Below are positions 16,157 to 29,023 of a stretch of 64,000 bases of DNA, in pieces; position 1 is the stretch's first letter; the number at the start of each line of letters is the position of its first letter. The stretch covers positions 1-64,000 of the forward strand of contig PEAM01000010.1 in assembly GCA_002753565.1 (NCBI GenBank), given 5' to 3'. A program made the position numbers and the translations under genes. A model generated the notes under the pieces. That model did not search any database and was not told the DNA's origin. It saw nothing but the letters and a program-made list of their open reading frames with translations. The DNA is from Magnetococcales bacterium (GTDB lineage Bacteria > Pseudomonadota > Magnetococcia > Magnetococcales > JADFYX01).

Positions 16157-18079
16157 TCAACCGGAAGTCAGAGTGGTAATACCGGCCCCCTGTCGAATGG
16201 TCTCCATGCGCTGAGCGGCGCCATCAAGAGTTAGGAATCGAGGCTGTAGAGTTGGGGGGATCAACACCTCTCGCCAGAGCAACTCCTGGATGATCGGCAG
16301 ATGATTACGACTCATTTTTCCCATCCATAACGGCTCGGTTGTACCCCCACCGGCCAGATAATCCAACGCATCAACCAGACCCGACAGATAGATGGCATCT
16401 TTGGTCAAACCACCACCACGGTGGACTCGCATGGCGATTGAAAAGGCGCTCTCCTTGGAAAAACCCATACCTTCGTGAAGCATGGCAAAGGTTTGAACAA
16501 AGGTCGCCCCCTGGATCATATCCGAAACAGCCACAACCCGAGCCGCCAACACCCTCAGCCTGTTGACCGTCAGGCCGCCGGCTAGATATTCAGCCATCAC
16601 CGCCAGCCCCTCCTGAAAGGATTCGTAGTTACCAAACCCAACAGAGAGTAAATGTAGCGGCTGTTGCAGACCATTAAATTGCGTCAACATGTGAACACCA
16701 ATCTCATGCTGCAGAAGAGCGGTTGCTCGGGCTGGTGTGGCTTTGGTTCCTGGTCCGAGGAGGAGCTTTCCATTGGAGACCAAAAAGTTGCTGGGCATTT
16801 CCGGGCGAATTTCCACCCCCTGACCAAAACCGGGTTGGCTGGCCCGATAGTGAGCAATCTCTTCCCAGGCCATCTGTTCAAGTTGGAGCGCTTCCAGCTC
16901 GTTTGCTGGCTCTTGATCGGAGTTGACAGAGGAGAACTGTTGTAACAAGGTTTCGGCCATGGAACGCAAAGCGGGCTTGACACCACCAAACAGTTGCAGG
17001 CTTTCCGGTAAAAAACGGTCAGAACCACAATCCCGCAACAGATTGATCTGACTATCCAACTCTTCGGATTTTTCCCGAAACAGGGCTTCCAGTGCCGGGT
17101 CATCCACCGAATCTACCGGGATTCTGAATAGCGTACGCTTGAGCGCTACCGGATCGAAAGGGAGGGGGCGATAGAAAAAAACCGGTGGTTTGACAAAGCC
17201 ATTCTCACTAAAATCCTGCCAGGCAGCCCGAACATTAATGGGTGTGACATACATCAGGTAGTCAATCCGCTTGCTAATGTCAGCCAGACGGTGATCGGTC
17301 TGCCAGGTTTTTTCGGTTACCGAGCGGGGGCCCAGAGCTTGAAAATGGGGAATGGCCTTTGCCGAACCAAAACAGGTAAACCGATAGAGCGCCTTACGCA
17401 AGGCCAAACTCAAACAGCGCCGGAGATTCCGGTGAGGAACCGGATAGACCCCACCACTTTCGTCTGGCATTAAACTTTGGAAAAAAGACTGGATACCAAC
17501 ACCCAAGCGGTGCAGGCCGGCAGGTGTACCCTCTTGAAACAGGCTGTCGACCTGATACCAAGGTTCTGAAAAATGGTCGGATTCGGTGTTGATTTGGATC
17601 AGGGAACGTTTACCATCCGGCCCACATTGGCGCAGCCCCGCTGTCAGGCTTTTTACCGGGCCTTCCAGACGTGGAGAGAGTTGAGAGACAATCTGAAAAG
17701 CTGGCTGATTTCCTCCGTCACCCTGGCTTTCGCCCTTTGGTACAGCGGGTAGGCTCCAAATTTGAAAGAGAAGAAAATCACCAAATTGAGGGGCTAAATG
17801 GCCGACAAGCTCTTTGAGCAGGGAATCATCTCGGGGGCCATGAGAGATAAAGAAAGCCGACTCTCCAGAGATAAGCTCTGCCACACCCGGCTCAGGCGAA
17901 CCGGTGGGGGAGCGATAGTAACAGAGAAAAGGAAAAATTCGGTCCAGATGAAGCGTCCCACCATCTGGCAGAGGCAGTTGAATGGGGGCACTTTTTTTCT
18001 GCACCCCTTTGGAAAAAAGAGCCTGGAAAAGCTCTGAATCAACTGGTTCCGACAACGGTTCAGGCGCCGTATTCGTCAT
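16157..18079 (-). CDS. QEGLA-motif putative metallohydrolase (HExxxH)
   Basis: A 640-residue protein of the group annotated as flavohemoglobin-expression-modulating QEGLA motif proteins (DUF1704). The name-giving QEGLA lies at residues 489-493, downstream of a HEIGVH motif at 458-463. The HExxxH arrangement is the one found in tyrosine carboxypeptidase-type (MATCAP-like) metallopeptidases, so a zinc-dependent hydrolase acting on a peptide C-terminus is a reasonable prediction. The N-terminal 400 residues are soluble and unassigned. Its start overlaps the end of the upstream M14 gene by 20 bases, so the two are translationally coupled. The physiological substrate is unknown. Confidence 0.8.
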   Translation of the reverse strand: MTNTAPEPLSEPVDSELFQALFSKGVQKKSAPIQLPLPDGGTLHLDRIFPFLCYYRSPTGSPEPGVAELISGESAFFISHGPRDDSLLKELVGHLAPQFGDFLLFQIWSLPAVPKGESQGDGGNQPAFQIVSQLSPRLEGPVKSLTAGLRQCGPDGKRSLIQINTESDHFSEPWYQVDSLFQEGTPAGLHRLGVGIQSFFQSLMPDESGGVYPVPHRNLRRCLSLALRKALYRFTCFGSAKAIPHFQALGPRSVTEKTWQTDHRLADISKRIDYLMYVTPINVRAAWQDFSENGFVKPPVFFYRPLPFDPVALKRTLFRIPVDSVDDPALEALFREKSEELDSQINLLRDCGSDRFLPESLQLFGGVKPALRSMAETLLQQFSSVNSDQEPANELEALQLEQMAWEEIAHYRASQPGFGQGVEIRPEMPSNFLVSNGKLLLGPGTKATPARATALLQHEIGVHMLTQFNGLQQPLHLLSVGFGNYESFQEGLAVMAEYLAGGLTVNRLRVLAARVVAVSDMIQGATFVQTFAMLHEGMGFSKESAFSIAMRVHRGGGLTKDAIYLSGLVDALDYLAGGGTTEPLWMGKMSRNHLPIIQELLWREVLIPPTLQPRFLTLDGAAQRMETIRQGAGITTLTSG

Positions 18080-19253: not shown

Positions 19254-20774
19254 CTAGCCAACCAAATGAGTCACGCGGGCAAGCAACTCTTTTTTATCCG
19301 TAGGTTGAGTAATAAAATCGTAGGCACCCAGTGAAAAAAGGCGTACGTCAAAATCATCGGAGGATGTCAGGATGATCGTCCGAACCTCGCCACCCTTAGG
19401 GTTTAAACTTTCAAATGAGGTCAGGTTCTCTTCCACCACGTTATCTTCGACAATCAGGAGATTCATCCGGTTCTCAGCCAGCCAGACCCGGACATCTTGC
19501 AGGGTCTTCACCATAACCAGGTGGGCATCCAGACTGGTGGCACACGCTTGAATGGCAGCTTGGGAGGATTCACTCTGGCTTGCCAATAAAATGGTGGGTT
19601 TTGGCAGCGCCAAAATAAGGGAAAAACGGCTCCCTTCCCCCACCGTCGAGGTGACCTGAATCTCGCCCTTATGCGCATTGACGAGGTCCATGCAGTAAGG
19701 CAGGCCAAACCCGGTCCCTTTCTCTCCCAGAGTACCAATGGTCGATGTCTTCTCCTCAATTTTGAAAAGTGTTTGGATCGCCTCTTTACTGATTCCCGTA
19801 CCACTATCCTCTACAGTCAAGCGGCTGTTTTCGCCCTCTCTCTCATAGTCAATAAGGATGGTATCGCCGCTATGACAAAATTTGATGGCATTGGAAACAA
19901 AGTTTCCGACTACCTCACCAAGAAGGGTGGTATCACCATACATTTGATCGGCAGGGGATAGCCTGTTTTCAATGGTAATCCCCTTTTGTTTGGCAGAAAG
20001 GCCATAATTGGTTATAACCCGGTCAACCATGGCATGCGCACTGAAAAAACTGATGGAAAGCTGAATCTTCCCCGTTTTTAAACGGTTGATATTCAACAAG
20101 GTTTCAACCATGTGCAGCATGTTGTTGCCGGTATCAATCAGACTGGAGATGATGGTGTTGCTGTTCTGATCAAGGGTTTCAGACTGCCGAGAGGCTGTCA
20201 GCTGCTCAAGGCTGTTAATGATGGCAGCCAGTGGCCCTCTTAAGTCATGGGCAACCAAGGAGACAAACTTATCCTTCAGACTGTTGGCATCCTCCACCTC
20301 TTTGGTGCGCACCAGAACCCTGTCTTCAAGTTGGGCATTCTGGTTGGCCAGCTGTTCAACCAAAAAACGGTTTTGGATGATAAGTTCATATTTTTCAAAG
20401 GCCTCCTGAACAATGGTATCCAGTTCGACCGGGTTCCAGGGTTTCATGACATATCGGAAAATATTGCCATCGTTGATGGCCTGGATGACAGCATTGATAT
20501 CGGCATAACCGGTTAGAAGCAGACGCATGGCATCGGGATAGCGCTCTTTAGCCTTGGCAAAAAACTCACTGCCGGTCATCTCTGGCATGCGTTGATCGGA
20601 AATAATAACCTGGATGGAGTTGGACTTGAGAATCTCCAACCCCTCGGCAGCACTATTGGCAATATAGACCTTGAACGTACGCATGAACTGTCGACGAAGA
20701 GATTTGATAATCTCCATCTCATCATCCACAACCAGCAGGCCTCTTTCATAGGAGGGAATCTCAATATTATTCAT
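19254..20774 (-). CDS. Hybrid signalling protein: REC, HisKA, HATPase, C-terminal REC-like
   Basis: A 506-residue cytoplasmic signalling protein. An N-terminal receiver domain (residues 12-125) has the acidic pair VVDDE and phospho-acceptor Asp60 in ISDQRMPEMTG. A short coiled coil leads to a histidine kinase domain with the H-box LVAHDLRGPLAAI near residue 175, an N-box (VGNFVSNAIKFCHSG), and G-boxes DSGTGIS and GTGFGLPYC. The last 115 residues look like a degenerate second receiver with DN rather than a full acidic pocket. There is no output DNA-binding domain. It overlaps the kinase upstream by eight bases and is the last gene of a run beginning with the B12-binding protein. Confidence 0.82.
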   Translation of the reverse strand: MNNIEIPSYERGLLVVDDEMEIIKSLRRQFMRTFKVYIANSAAEGLEILKSNSIQVIISDQRMPEMTGSEFFAKAKERYPDAMRLLLTGYADINAVIQAINDGNIFRYVMKPWNPVELDTIVQEAFEKYELIIQNRFLVEQLANQNAQLEDRVLVRTKEVEDANSLKDKFVSLVAHDLRGPLAAIINSLEQLTASRQSETLDQNSNTIISSLIDTGNNMLHMVETLLNINRLKTGKIQLSISFFSAHAMVDRVITNYGLSAKQKGITIENRLSPADQMYGDTTLLGEVVGNFVSNAIKFCHSGDTILIDYEREGENSRLTVEDSGTGISKEAIQTLFKIEEKTSTIGTLGEKGTGFGLPYCMDLVNAHKGEIQVTSTVGEGSRFSLILALPKPTILLASQSESSQAAIQACATSLDAHLVMVKTLQDVRVWLAENRMNLLIVEDNVVEENLTSFESLNPKGGEVRTIILTSSDDFDVRLFSLGAYDFITQPTDKKELLARVTHLVG

Positions 20775-22047
20775 TGTCTGACCTTCTAAGGGGAAGCGTA
20801 ACGGTAAACGTCGTGCCTATTCCTGTTTCGGAGTGTATCGCGATGGTTCCACGATGGTTATCGGTGATAATCTTATAGGCAATGCTCATACCCAGTCCGG
20901 TTCCCGTACCCACAGGCTTGGTGGTATAAAAAGGGTCGAATACCTTTTTCCGCACCTCTTCGGACATGCCACATCCGGTATCCGAGAAGGTCAGCCGTAA
21001 CCAATCCTTCTCGTGTCTGGCCCCTGATATGACGATCTCTCCCCCCCCTTCCATGGCTTGGGAGGCGTTGATGATGATGTTTAAAAAAACCTGATTTAAC
21101 TCCGATGGGTGGCACTGGATGGTGGGGATGGAATCTAACTCAAGGCGGTAGGTGACATTATTCTTTTTAAGTTGTGGTCCAGCCAGAGAGAGGGTGCTTA
21201 AGAGGTTCTCTTTCAGATCAACCTCTTGAACGGCTGACTCATCCAGATGGGAGAATTGGCGTAAATCACTGACAATCTTGGTGACACGGTCCAGACCATC
21301 TTTGGAGCCTGAAACCAGATCATCCACATCCTCAAAGACAAAATCGATATGATATTTCTCTCGGATGTTTTTTAGCGCTGCCCCTTCTACACCACTTTTT
21401 AAACACTGCTCCTCCAGAGAGCCATAGGCGTTGATCACATCACCAAAAGAGGTATCCAGATAGTGTAGATTACTGCTGACAAATGCAATGGGGTTGTTGA
21501 TCTCATGGGCCACACCGGCAACCAGCTGCCCCAAGGCGTTCATTTTTTCGGAGTGGATCAGCATATCCTGGGTGTTTCGCAACGCAAGCAGTGTCTTCTC
21601 CAGGCTCCTGTTTTTCTGCATGACCTGGCGTTGCAGTTGGTTAATCTCATTGTTCAAGCCAATGACGGTATGGCTTAAATGTTGAATCTCTTTGATGTCG
21701 TGCTCACCAAAGAAAAGAAACCGGTCAGCACGGCGGTATACCCGACAAATCAGGCTGACCGATATATCCTGTTGATTACCCAGGGAAGCGATACCAGAAA
21801 AGACGATCTCCTGATCATCCACAGGTAGATTGAGTAACTGCTCAAAGGTTGGGTTGACCAGAAAATCGATGGCCGGATGAGGATAGGAGGCCATCATCTC
21901 TTTCAGACCGGAGTTGGCAAACAGGGTCTGTTTGTCGGCGTCGAAAATCCAGACAATACTATGGAGACTCGACGCCAACAGTCCGCCCAGTTGAGTCGAC
22001 CACTCCGCTAAAGATGAGGTGGCCTCTTTCATGGGAAACAGAGCCAC
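20767..22047 (-). CDS. PAS-like sensor histidine kinase
   Basis: A 426-residue soluble histidine kinase. The first 130 residues look like a PAS fold (IVWIFDADKQTLFANSGLKEM), followed by a coiled coil and the dimerisation/phospho-acceptor motif GVAHEINNPIAFVSSNLHYL near residue 180. The catalytic domain has the N-box VFLNIIINASQAMEGGG and G-boxes DTGCGMS and GTGTGLGMS. The HEINNP form with long linker is typical of NtrB-like or HPK4 kinases. No membrane segment is present, so the signal is probably intracellular. GTG 22047 is the most distal start; ATG 22032, five codons later, is equally possible. It is co-directional with the B12-binding gene. Confidence 0.82.
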   Translation of the reverse strand: MALFPMKEATSSLAEWSTQLGGLLASSLHSIVWIFDADKQTLFANSGLKEMMASYPHPAIDFLVNPTFEQLLNLPVDDQEIVFSGIASLGNQQDISVSLICRVYRRADRFLFFGEHDIKEIQHLSHTVIGLNNEINQLQRQVMQKNRSLEKTLLALRNTQDMLIHSEKMNALGQLVAGVAHEINNPIAFVSSNLHYLDTSFGDVINAYGSLEEQCLKSGVEGAALKNIREKYHIDFVFEDVDDLVSGSKDGLDRVTKIVSDLRQFSHLDESAVQEVDLKENLLSTLSLAGPQLKKNNVTYRLELDSIPTIQCHPSELNQVFLNIIINASQAMEGGGEIVISGARHEKDWLRLTFSDTGCGMSEEVRKKVFDPFYTTKPVGTGTGLGMSIAYKIITDNHRGTIAIHSETGIGTTFTVTLPLRRSDNE

Positions 22048-22091
22048 CCGATAGGATGAAACAGTGGGTGCATGGTGTTGTTGTCGCTACG

Positions 22092-22529
22092 TTAGGTTTG
22101 ATCGGTTAATGTCACAAAAGAGGACTGATTGACAATCAACCACTGATAAAGAGGTTCTATTTCAGTATAGGCGCTGGCGGATAGGGACTGTTTGAGAACC
22201 GTCATCCAGCCATTCAGTTGGGCAGGCCAGTAGGTTAGGTTGAAGCCATGGGATCGATAGGCCCGAAACACCCATAACACCGTATCCACCAACATGCCGG
22301 CCTCATAGTGCCGTAGAAGAGACTCGATAAAACGGCTATGGTTGGTGTGGTTGTCGTTCATCATGCTCTGATGATCCGCTCCGATCATCTTCTCCAGATC
22401 GCTGCGTTCACTCATGATGGCGTTCAACTCCGCAACCAGAGACTCTCTTTTGTTGGTGTACTCCTCTACTGTTTGTGGTGAAACAGAGATCAGGTTTTGG
22501 GCAGAGGCCAGAAGTTGAGCTTTATCCAT
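22092..22529 (-). CDS. Hypothetical protein in the B12/kinase cluster
   Basis: A 145-residue soluble, mostly helical protein that I do not recognise as a named family. It opens with a heptad-like stretch (about 15-55) and has a tryptophan/tyrosine-rich region (VLWVFRAYRSHGF and YWPAQLNGWMTVLK). It sits between the B12-binding protein (49 bases upstream) and the PAS kinase (44 bases downstream) on the same strand, so it is very likely an adaptor or regulator in the same pathway. A good GGAGTAGGA precedes the ATG at 22529. A link between the sensor and the kinase is inference from position only. Confidence 0.6.
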   Translation of the reverse strand: MDKAQLLASAQNLISVSPQTVEEYTNKRESLVAELNAIMSERSDLEKMIGADHQSMMNDNHTNHSRFIESLLRHYEAGMLVDTVLWVFRAYRSHGFNLTYWPAQLNGWMTVLKQSLSASAYTEIEPLYQWLIVNQSSFVTLTDQT

Positions 22530-22578
22530 TATCCTACTCCAGTTTAACGGGTTTCTTTCATTAAGATAACAGACGGCG

Positions 22579-23244
22579 TTATCTCTGTCGTCTAGGGTTG
22601 AACTCGGGTTTGTCCAGAAAGGTGGTTAAATCTTCAAGTGTGGAAATGTAATATACTTTTTGACCTTTTTTTGCAATCTGAGTGCCGTTGGTCGATAGCC
22701 CTTGACCACCGATGATGATCGGAATATCCGGAAAGGCCGAACGAATGGCGGCAATCATTTTTTCCAAACCCGGCAGATTAAAATAGATGGACATGGAGAG
22801 GCCAATGATATCCGGCCTCTTTTCCTCGATAAAGCCGATCATCTCGCTGGTTGGCGTGCTTGCCCCAAGATAGAAGGCTTCCCACCCATTCAGTTCTAGA
22901 ATATCACAGACCATTTTGGCCCCAACCTGGTGCAACTCTTTCTCTACGGAGCCTACAACCGCACACTTTCCAACACTCTCTCCCCGCTCAAACTGGGGAT
23001 AAACCTGGTTGAGCAACCCTTCGGTTATGGCGGTTGCCATATGTTCCGTCGCAACGGATAGCTGGTTTTTTTCCCAAAGATCGCCAACTTGATACATGGA
23101 TTTTTGCATCAGTTTTTCGTACAGCACAGGAATAGGAATCTGTTCATTCATTAATGTTTGAACAATTTCTGATGTTTGCCTGCGCTTTCCAGAGAGTAGA
23201 TTCTGGAAATAGGCCTCATAGAGAGTGTCGGAAATGATCGCCAT
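22579..23244 (-). CDS. Stand-alone B12-binding sensor protein (CarH-like cap and cobalamin domain)
   Basis: A 221-residue cytoplasmic cobalamin-binding protein. Residues 1-85 form the four-helix cap and contain W57 followed nine residues later by E67-H68, the Wx9EH motif found in light-sensing adenosylcobalamin proteins such as CarH. The cobalamin domain then shows E103-x-H105-x-x-G108, in which the histidine is the expected lower cobalt ligand, and later GLSMSIYF and IIIGGQGLS. There is no DNA-binding domain and no catalytic methyltransferase part. Its place at the head of a run with two histidine kinases suggests a B12-based light or redox sensor that signals through proteins rather than DNA. 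The light role is inference. Confidence 0.8.
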   Translation of the reverse strand: MAIISDTLYEAYFQNLLSGKRRQTSEIVQTLMNEQIPIPVLYEKLMQKSMYQVGDLWEKNQLSVATEHMATAITEGLLNQVYPQFERGESVGKCAVVGSVEKELHQVGAKMVCDILELNGWEAFYLGASTPTSEMIGFIEEKRPDIIGLSMSIYFNLPGLEKMIAAIRSAFPDIPIIIGGQGLSTNGTQIAKKGQKVYYISTLEDLTTFLDKPEFNPRRQR

Positions 23245-23279: not shown

Positions 23280-23615
23280 TTAGTTGCCAATCACTTCATA
23301 TTTACCAAAAGTTGACATCATTGGACATTTTTTCCCCTCTTTTTTAGCTTGGTCCATATCTTTGAAGGCGCGGGCGTGGCCCTCTTTGAATGCCTCTGAT
23401 TTGGTCCAACCATCGAAGGCGTCGGGGCTGTCCCAATGGCTGATGACCAGATAGGGTTGGTCGGGGTCGGCGGGGCGCAAAATTTCTACATGCTGAAAAC
23501 CGGGCATTTTTTCAATGGCCTTGGCTCGGGTTTTGAAAAGATGCTCCATCCGTTCAACATAACTGGGTTCGCAGGTGATGTTGTTGATTGCCACGTAGGA
23601 TTTTTTTTCACGCAC
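23280..23615 (-). CDS. IsdG-like antibiotic-biosynthesis-monooxygenase-fold protein
   Basis: A 111-residue ABM-fold protein resembling IsdG/HmuQ haem-degrading monooxygenases. The three catalytic-type residues of that group fall at matching spacing: N11 or N12, W70 and H80, the latter in FDGWTKSEAFKEGH. This suggests it binds haem and opens it with oxygen, releasing iron. Translation starts at GTG 23615, with AGGAGAG about nine bases upstream. No haem transport genes are nearby, so it may serve haem turnover or another small monooxygenase role. It lies just upstream of the B12-binding gene on the same strand. Confidence 0.7.
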   Translation of the reverse strand: MREKKSYVAINNITCEPSYVERMEHLFKTRAKAIEKMPGFQHVEILRPADPDQPYLVISHWDSPDAFDGWTKSEAFKEGHARAFKDMDQAKKEGKKCPMMSTFGKYEVIGN

Positions 23616-23747: not shown

Positions 23748-24815
23748 TTAGCTGTTCAAGTGTCGTTTAAAGATGGCCTTATGAATATCACCCCGGCTAA
23801 CAAACCCCAGCAGGCTATTTTGGTCATCAACGACAGGTAAGCGCTGAATGTTGTGAATGTCCATCTGGACCGCCGCCTTGATGGCCGGGTCGGTTTCGTT
23901 GACGGTAAAAAGGGTGCGTATCATCAACTTCTCTACCGTCCATTGCAGCGCATCCCCATAGCTCTCCTCAATTGCCGAGAAGTCGTTGACCATCTGCGGA
24001 TTTTTCCGAAACGCCTCATAGCCGGGGTACATCGCCTCTAAAATATCTTTTTCGGAGATGATACCCACCAATCGGTTTTTCTTGTCCACCACCGGCATAC
24101 CACTGATTTTTTTGGCACAGAGGGTTTTGGCCACCTTTCGCAAGGGGTCTGTTGGTCGGACAGTGTGCACTTTTCGGGTCATCACCTCGCCGACAAGCAG
24201 GCCACTTTTTTTGGTGACGACTGCTTCGGGTTCGGTAGGTGGGTTGGTAAAGTTTTCCACCCCTTCCCCCGGAACAATAATCTGTTCTTCTTCATCGATG
24301 GGTTCGGGAACAGGCCATTGATTGGGGTAGGGGTTGGGCTGGGAAAGAAAATCTGAGGGGTAGGCTTTATCTTCCATGACCGGGTTCCAGAATAGATCGA
24401 GTCCCGGTACATCGGTGCTAAACTCAATGGGTATGCCGTTGGGGTCATAGCTGTAGATGGATAAAAAACAGCCGTGGTCAATGACATCCGAACAGGGAAA
24501 ATCAGCGGCATCCAGCCGGGACATCATATCCCACAGCACGGAAACATCGGCAACACCAATAGAGATATGATCAAAACCAAAAGGGCCGACCACAGGTTCT
24601 CCATGGCGACGCATGGGGAGAGGTTCGACCTCATCCCAGGCAAAAAAGGAGATGCGGTTGTTACTTGTAATTTGGAAAAAATATTGCCGATAGCCCGTTT
24701 CTCCATACGCATAGATTAATCGGGCACCTATAAGATCTCGCCAAAACTTGACGGTACCTTCAATATCATTGGTGGCAAATGCGGCATGGTGAATTCCGGT
24801 AAATTCCTGTTTCAT
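23748..24815 (-). CDS. VOC (glyoxalase-fold) domain fused to a CBS pair
   Basis: A 355-residue fusion. Residues 1-140 are a vicinal-oxygen-chelate domain: HHAAFATNDIEGTVKFWRD supplies a metal-ligand histidine, DHISIGVADV a second, and PIEFS a glutamate. A proline- and glutamate-rich linker (about 150-205) leads to two CBS domains (VGEVMTRKVHTVRPTDPLR, and MIRTLFTVNETDPAIKAAV with RLPVVDDQNSLLGFVSRGD). CBS pairs usually bind adenine nucleotides, so the enzyme may be energy-regulated. The substrate is unknown. I know of no characterised protein with this pairing. The ribosome binding site is weak. It runs ahead of the IsdG-like gene on the same strand. Confidence 0.75.
   Translation of the reverse strand: MKQEFTGIHHAAFATNDIEGTVKFWRDLIGARLIYAYGETGYRQYFFQITSNNRISFFAWDEVEPLPMRRHGEPVVGPFGFDHISIGVADVSVLWDMMSRLDAADFPCSDVIDHGCFLSIYSYDPNGIPIEFSTDVPGLDLFWNPVMEDKAYPSDFLSQPNPYPNQWPVPEPIDEEEQIIVPGEGVENFTNPPTEPEAVVTKKSGLLVGEVMTRKVHTVRPTDPLRKVAKTLCAKKISGMPVVDKKNRLVGIISEKDILEAMYPGYEAFRKNPQMVNDFSAIEESYGDALQWTVEKLMIRTLFTVNETDPAIKAAVQMDIHNIQRLPVVDDQNSLLGFVSRGDIHKAIFKRHLNS

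Positions 24816-26545: not shown

Positions 26546-29023
<2,478 letters not shown>

Follow-up and report, generated by a model that had tools for sequence, protein, structure and literature searches.

The window analysed here, a stretch of 64,000 nucleotides from a Magnetococcales genome, contains a run of closely spaced genes on the minus strand, listed in their order on that strand:

23280..23615, minus strand: ABM-domain protein of 111 aa, HmoB/IsdG/HmuQ-like, with N11, W70 and H80
22579..23244, minus strand: stand-alone B12-binding protein of 221 aa, with a four-helix cap (PF02607) and a Rossmann domain (PF02310)
22092..22529, minus strand: photoglobin-like subunit, diverged and stand-alone, 145 aa, modelled as an all-helical phycobiliprotein-type globin fold
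20767..22047, minus strand: kinase 1, a soluble histidine kinase of 426 aa with a PAS-like N-terminal domain, HisKA (H181) and HATPase_c
19254..20774, minus strand: kinase 2, REC-HisKA-HATPase-REC, 506 aa, with H176

According to the ORF positions, the intergenic gaps are 35 bp (ABM/B12), 49 bp (B12/145-aa) and 44 bp (145-aa/kinase 1), and the ORFs of the two kinases overlap by 8 bp. The first-pass annotation had described four genes on one strand with short gaps, and these coordinates agree with it; the run is, however, longer than the B12-led one it described, as the heme-monooxygenase-like ABM gene lies upstream and is probably the first gene. Neither a riboswitch nor a B12-metabolism gene was found beside the cluster, and a promoter scan gave matches below the shuffle expectation. 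There is no DNA-binding output gene in the cluster, so the final target should be elsewhere. A cobalamin adenosyltransferase is encoded in the host genome.

In the 221-aa protein, only PF02607 and PF02310 were recognized by Pfam, with no MerR DNA-binding domain at the N-terminus, in agreement with the earlier description of a protein devoid of DNA-binding and enzymatic domains. The translated ORF shows the motifs G54xxW57-x9-E67H68, E103xH105xxG108 and G127xxxP131, and W57, E67, H68, E103, H105 and G108 are all at the positions previously assigned to them. From the SignatureFinder signature of CarH-type AdoCbl photoreceptor domains (GxxW / EH / GxxH / GxxxP; PMC11796333), 3 of the 4 motifs are present (G54-W57, E67-H68 and G127-P131). 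In the fourth, GxxH, the cobalt His is present as H105 and the Gly position is occupied by Lys102; this Gly is also missing in most of the rows checked from the split clade described below.

A phmmer search against solved structures placed photocobilins first (4e-25), followed by CarH (3e-7) and MetH. The AF2 model (pLDDT 94) is predicted to have the fold of the CarH/photocobilin cobalamin domain: the top Foldseek matches were 8j2x (E 8.5e-17) and 8j2w (E 3e-16, rmsd 2.0), and then the CtMerR cobalamin domain, AbPcob and CarH (5c8d, E about 1e-12). The kinship with AdoCbl photoreceptors suggested by the first-pass annotation is thus supported by both sequence and Foldseek, photocobilins and CarH being the best solved relatives. 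A GTDB scan for relatives found none with the single protein and succeeded with an alignment. The W-x9-EH motif is kept in 40 of 40 aligned relatives and in none of the 23 MetH-type ORFs of the same order, which indicates that it is not due to chance, with part of this conservation being a selection effect, as the scan patterns that fetched most relatives were derived from the same motif region. We infer that the protein binds AdoCbl and responds to light.

The 145-aa protein, first taken as a helical unknown, is indeed helical in its AF2 model (pLDDT 96, pTM 0.89), but model and profile comparison together give it a probable identity. No family was found for it in Pfam or NCBIfam, and a PDB sequence search was also without match; 26 clear homologues are present among the fetched loci. 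The leading Foldseek matches of the model are nearly all allophycocyanins and related phycobiliproteins, including smURFP (TM 0.72/0.76, rmsd 2.5), with modest E-values, the best being 0.015. Another group of relatives has a domain of ~150 aa fused N-terminally to the B12 domain, with matches to the SasPcob globin (E 1e-7) and to allophycocyanins (E 3e-8). When the 145-aa family was compared with these fused photoglobin domains by hhalign, 119 colinear columns were aligned along the whole length with a score of 55.8, against controls of at most 17.9 (60 column shuffles), 9.9 (reversed) and 10-13 (unrelated helical families). A second, independent profile build gave 92% and E 6e-7, the profile-profile E-values being those of single comparisons. 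Pairwise comparison of the 145-aa protein with three fused domains was not significant, and the relation is visible by profile-profile comparison and structure only. Intermediate sequences (e.g. L146, L120 and L154) match both the split and the fused globin profiles. Judged by modelled fold and profile relation, the 145-aa protein belongs to the photoglobins, which form the globin part of photocobilins, as a diverged member. The B12 protein remains the B12 part of the sensor as first described, but it does not seem to be alone, as it has a globin-fold partner with which it probably forms a two-protein unit.

Within the 145-aa family, N60, N63, H64 and W86 are conserved and no Cys is found. H64 and W86 are kept at equal numbering in the 145-aa and fused families, whereas position 60 is a nearly invariant Asn in the split subgroup and an invariant Asp in the fused relatives. 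In SasPcob, Trp296 hydrogen-bonds the corrin and Asp270 binds biliverdin (PMC10979010). Based on the alignment and on an equal spacing of 26 residues, we read W86 as the likely counterpart of Trp296, and its retention suggests that the globin still contacts the B12 domain. The biliverdin-binding Asp of photocobilins, in turn, is Asn60 in the window protein.

Kinase 1 is a soluble kinase as annotated at first, but the PAS domain then attributed to it was not found by Pfam, which recognizes HisKA and HATPase only. We call its N-terminal domain PAS-like because it is conserved among B12-linked kinases: 19 of its 20 direct relatives are B12-adjacent, and the remaining one is in a locus (L093) that also carries the globin. 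Kinase 2 was correctly anticipated as a REC-kinase hybrid (REC-HisKA-HATPase-REC in Pfam). Its first REC is intact (D17/D18, D60, K111) and its last one is degenerate, with the acidic pair missing and Gln for Lys, and is thus probably not phosphorylated normally.

Both B12 and globin genes are present in 25 loci, being adjacent in 16 and separated by one kinase in 8. The exact order B12, globin, kinase 1, kinase 2 was found in five Bacteroidota MAGs (L097, L099, L100, L103 and L107), whose kinases have about 37-41% identity with those of the window over most of their length. The globin profile alone, used against 395 Bacteroidota genomes, detected 5 carriers with a single copy each, and a B12 gene and a kinase were beside the globin in 4 of the 4 carriers not already in the query. 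Carriers belong to Bacteroidota, SAR324, Thermodesulfobacteriota, Omnitrophota and Deferribacterota, with one intermediate in Chloroflexota. The linkage of the sensor genes to this specific kinase type is far beyond chance; the conserved co-occurrence proposed earlier as a check on the cascade was found, with the genes linked across phyla. Five or more bacterial phyla share this co-travelling gene set, which we therefore read as a probable two-piece photocobilin wired to phosphate signalling.

In the photocobilin-type tree, the window falls in a clade of 36 rows (support 100/100) with no fused member. This clade is nested among fused rows, so a single split of a fused ancestor probably gave rise to it. 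None of 60 relatives, including four congeners, has the globin. The upstream neighbour of the run is native (73-74% identity within the genus), and two congeners carry it with no such run beside it. We suggest from these observations that the run was probably acquired horizontally; contamination of the contig is unlikely, given the identity of the upstream neighbour within the genus.

A canonical heme oxygenase is absent from the host genome and from 23 of the 25 other globin-carrying genomes searched, many of them incomplete MAGs. With heme oxygenase so rare among carriers, this branch of photoglobins may have lost its bilin or replaced it by another. The ABM gene (23280-23615) is the only one of its kind in the host genome, and the alignment of its product with solved HmoB/IsdG-type structures reveals the N11, W70 and H80 triad. 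An N-W-H triad defines IsdG-type heme oxygenases (PMC5557675); with the NCBIfam HmuQ model the window protein scores 51.8 bits, below the cut-off of 130 bits. Bilin in the host could come from this IsdG-like upstream gene, but the globin may also be bilin-free. An original association of the ABM gene with the native gene upstream was rejected, as congeners have that gene with no ABM gene. Other lineages also have ABM genes next to their B12 loci (L073/L137, L018, L076, L116, L121, L122, L124 and L128), their proteins having Ser for the triad Asn and a different C-terminus; their link to the window gene is thus at most putative, and the idea of an IsdG-like gene as the standard bilin supplier of the family was not retained. 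In favour of a bilin, a canonical heme oxygenase gene adjoins the B12 gene in six loci (L114, L119, L125, L140, L141 and L149), and in the first three of these, window-like kinases are found in the following genes.

The heme oxygenase ORFs of those three loci (L114:3102-4391, L119:6689-8005 and L125:6596-7948), from Geobacter, Myxococcota and Desulfobulbaceae MAGs, sit between the stand-alone B12 gene and a window-like kinase. They contain a heme oxygenase domain and, after it, ~220 aa with a weak photoglobin-like stretch, possibly a fusion of bilin-making and bilin-holding parts. An independent split case was found in another Pseudomonadota lineage (L047/L076, G235:C348), where an ABM gene is followed by a stand-alone photoglobin that retains the CxxD motif, then by a stand-alone B12 protein and finally by a PAS-like ORF truncated at the end of the contig.

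Other genes of the window were also recorded. The ORF at 23748-24815 encodes a glyoxalase-like domain fused to two CBS domains. Elsewhere in the order these two halves mostly match separate genes, the full-length fusion occurring only in a few members (G001, G003 and G032). At 26546-29023, on the opposite strand and ~3 kb upstream of the B12 cluster, a PocR sensory domain forms the N-terminal part of a hybrid histidine kinase that also contains two PAS domains and a receiver. At 16157-18079, a 640-aa bacterial protein with a MATCAP-type domain (microtubule tyrosine carboxypeptidase family) adjoins an AstE/AspA-like deacylase.

The reading we favour, with a probability of about 0.6, is a split photocobilin: two subunits would together form an AdoCbl sensor, probably of light, that controls the kinases by protein contact. 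The AdoCbl-binding CarH-type domain and the photoglobin-fold subunit would be made as two proteins instead of one and would dock like the fused domains, with globin W86 against the corrin edge in the role of Trp296 of SasPcob; we assume here that so strongly diverged a globin docks on the B12 protein. H105 would keep AdoCbl base-off, and the adenosyl moiety would rest against W57/E67/H68 in a dimer interface. Under green light, or on loss of the adenosyl group by any other route, the Co-C bond would break, the E67/H68 helix would move and the dimer would come apart. The changed surface would be read by the PAS-like domain of kinase 1, which would then alter phosphotransfer to the intact receiver of kinase 2, and in this manner we infer that the sensor pair controls the kinases. 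The replacement of Asp270 by Asn60, Lys102 in place of the Gly of GxxH, the scarcity of heme oxygenase, and the origin of many carriers (sediment and groundwater MAGs, from habitats where light may be absent) count against a split photocobilin.

Several of these points would suit a light-independent sensor, in which the pair reports AdoCbl supply or the redox or ligand state of cobalamin (adenosyl vs hydroxo/apo) to the kinases and light has no physiological role. This is the main rival, and the dark or anoxic provenance of many carriers (sediment/groundwater MAGs or anaerobic lineages) makes it a real, if lesser, possibility. In its favour are also the scarcity of canonical heme oxygenase among carriers and the loss of the biliverdin Asp, and the AdoCbl level could itself be the signal, as CarH-type dimerisation needs bound AdoCbl. 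However, the adenosyl cap W57/E67/H68 is that of proven photoreceptors, tested proteins with this cap respond to green light (PMC11796333, PMC10979010), and no B12-metabolism gene or riboswitch adjoins the cluster. More doubtful is a reading in which the globin, docked in trans on the AdoCbl domain, binds a tetrapyrrole other than biliverdin (e.g. an IsdG-type bilin from the adjacent monooxygenase) or holds another ligand in its conserved pocket of N60/N63/H64/W86; the pair would then be a receptor of two proteins and two chromophores, with the kinase cascade set by its state of assembly.

A convergent globin-like fold, with the 145-aa protein as a helical adaptor of other ancestry, is very improbable. 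Single-sequence searches relate it to no known globin, the Foldseek E is only 0.015 and 8j2w is not among the 50 matches listed, but the colinear profile match of 119-121 columns is far above the shuffled controls, the intermediates L146, L120 and L154 match both profiles, and the neighbour gene is the same as for the fused domain. We regard as likewise very improbable that the B12 protein is a corrinoid methyl carrier of the MtaC/MtbC/MetH type, i.e. an enzyme subunit and no sensor. The two-domain layout is identical and there are weak NCBIfam matches to MtbC, MtgC and MetH; these are nevertheless far below the curated cut-offs (MtbC/MtgC/MtaC), the run has no methyltransferase gene, the W-x9-EH cap is missing from all 23 MetH-type ORFs of the order, and kinase and globin neighbours are constant.

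Photocobilins are the newest class of B12 photoreceptors, the stand-alone ones being thought to act through protein contact (PMC10979010). The cluster ties a photocobilin-type sensor to two specific co-inherited kinases, which makes the output step testable in vitro with four small soluble proteins. A separable globin subunit would be useful for probing the role of the globin and for two-part optogenetic switches.

The cascade had been presented as not well described, which is right only in part: B12-domain/globin light sensors are already published (PMC10979010; Schneider et al. 2022 as cited there), and separate globin and B12 genes with heme oxygenase are known from other bacteria (PMC10151467). 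As far as the literature was compared, the new elements are a subgroup of diverged, stand-alone globins and the conserved connection of this subgroup with two kinases, with a possible overlap with the original description of the photoglobin family (Schneider et al. 2022). According to the papers citing that description (PMC10979010, PMC10151467), the photoglobin is a globin without heme that is coupled to B12 domains and to further functional domains. CarH/LitR (PDB 5C8D/5C8E) shares the cap motif, the cobalt-His motif and the fold with the window protein. Its MerR DNA-binding domain is missing here. The bis-His ligand of light-state CarH is the residue after the cap Trp (H132 in TtCarH), a position occupied by Glu58 in the window B12 protein and by Gln in SasPcob. 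The BBAG-2 globin and B12 gene pairs of Myxococcales and relatives are separate neighbouring genes, as here, are associated with heme oxygenase and bind biliverdin (PMC10151467). Their globin belongs to another subgroup, with an RGMC Cys motif in contrast to no Cys in ours; no histidine kinase is mentioned in PMC10151467, while heme oxygenase is missing from nearly all carriers of our set. Photocobilins (SasPcob 8J2W/8J2X and AbDPcob 8J2Y; PMC10979010) have in common with the cluster a CarH-type AdoCbl domain with W-x9-EH and a photoglobin-fold partner. They are, however, single polypeptides, whereas two genes 49 bp apart are found here, with a strongly diverged globin (Asp270 to Asn60) and two co-encoded kinases.
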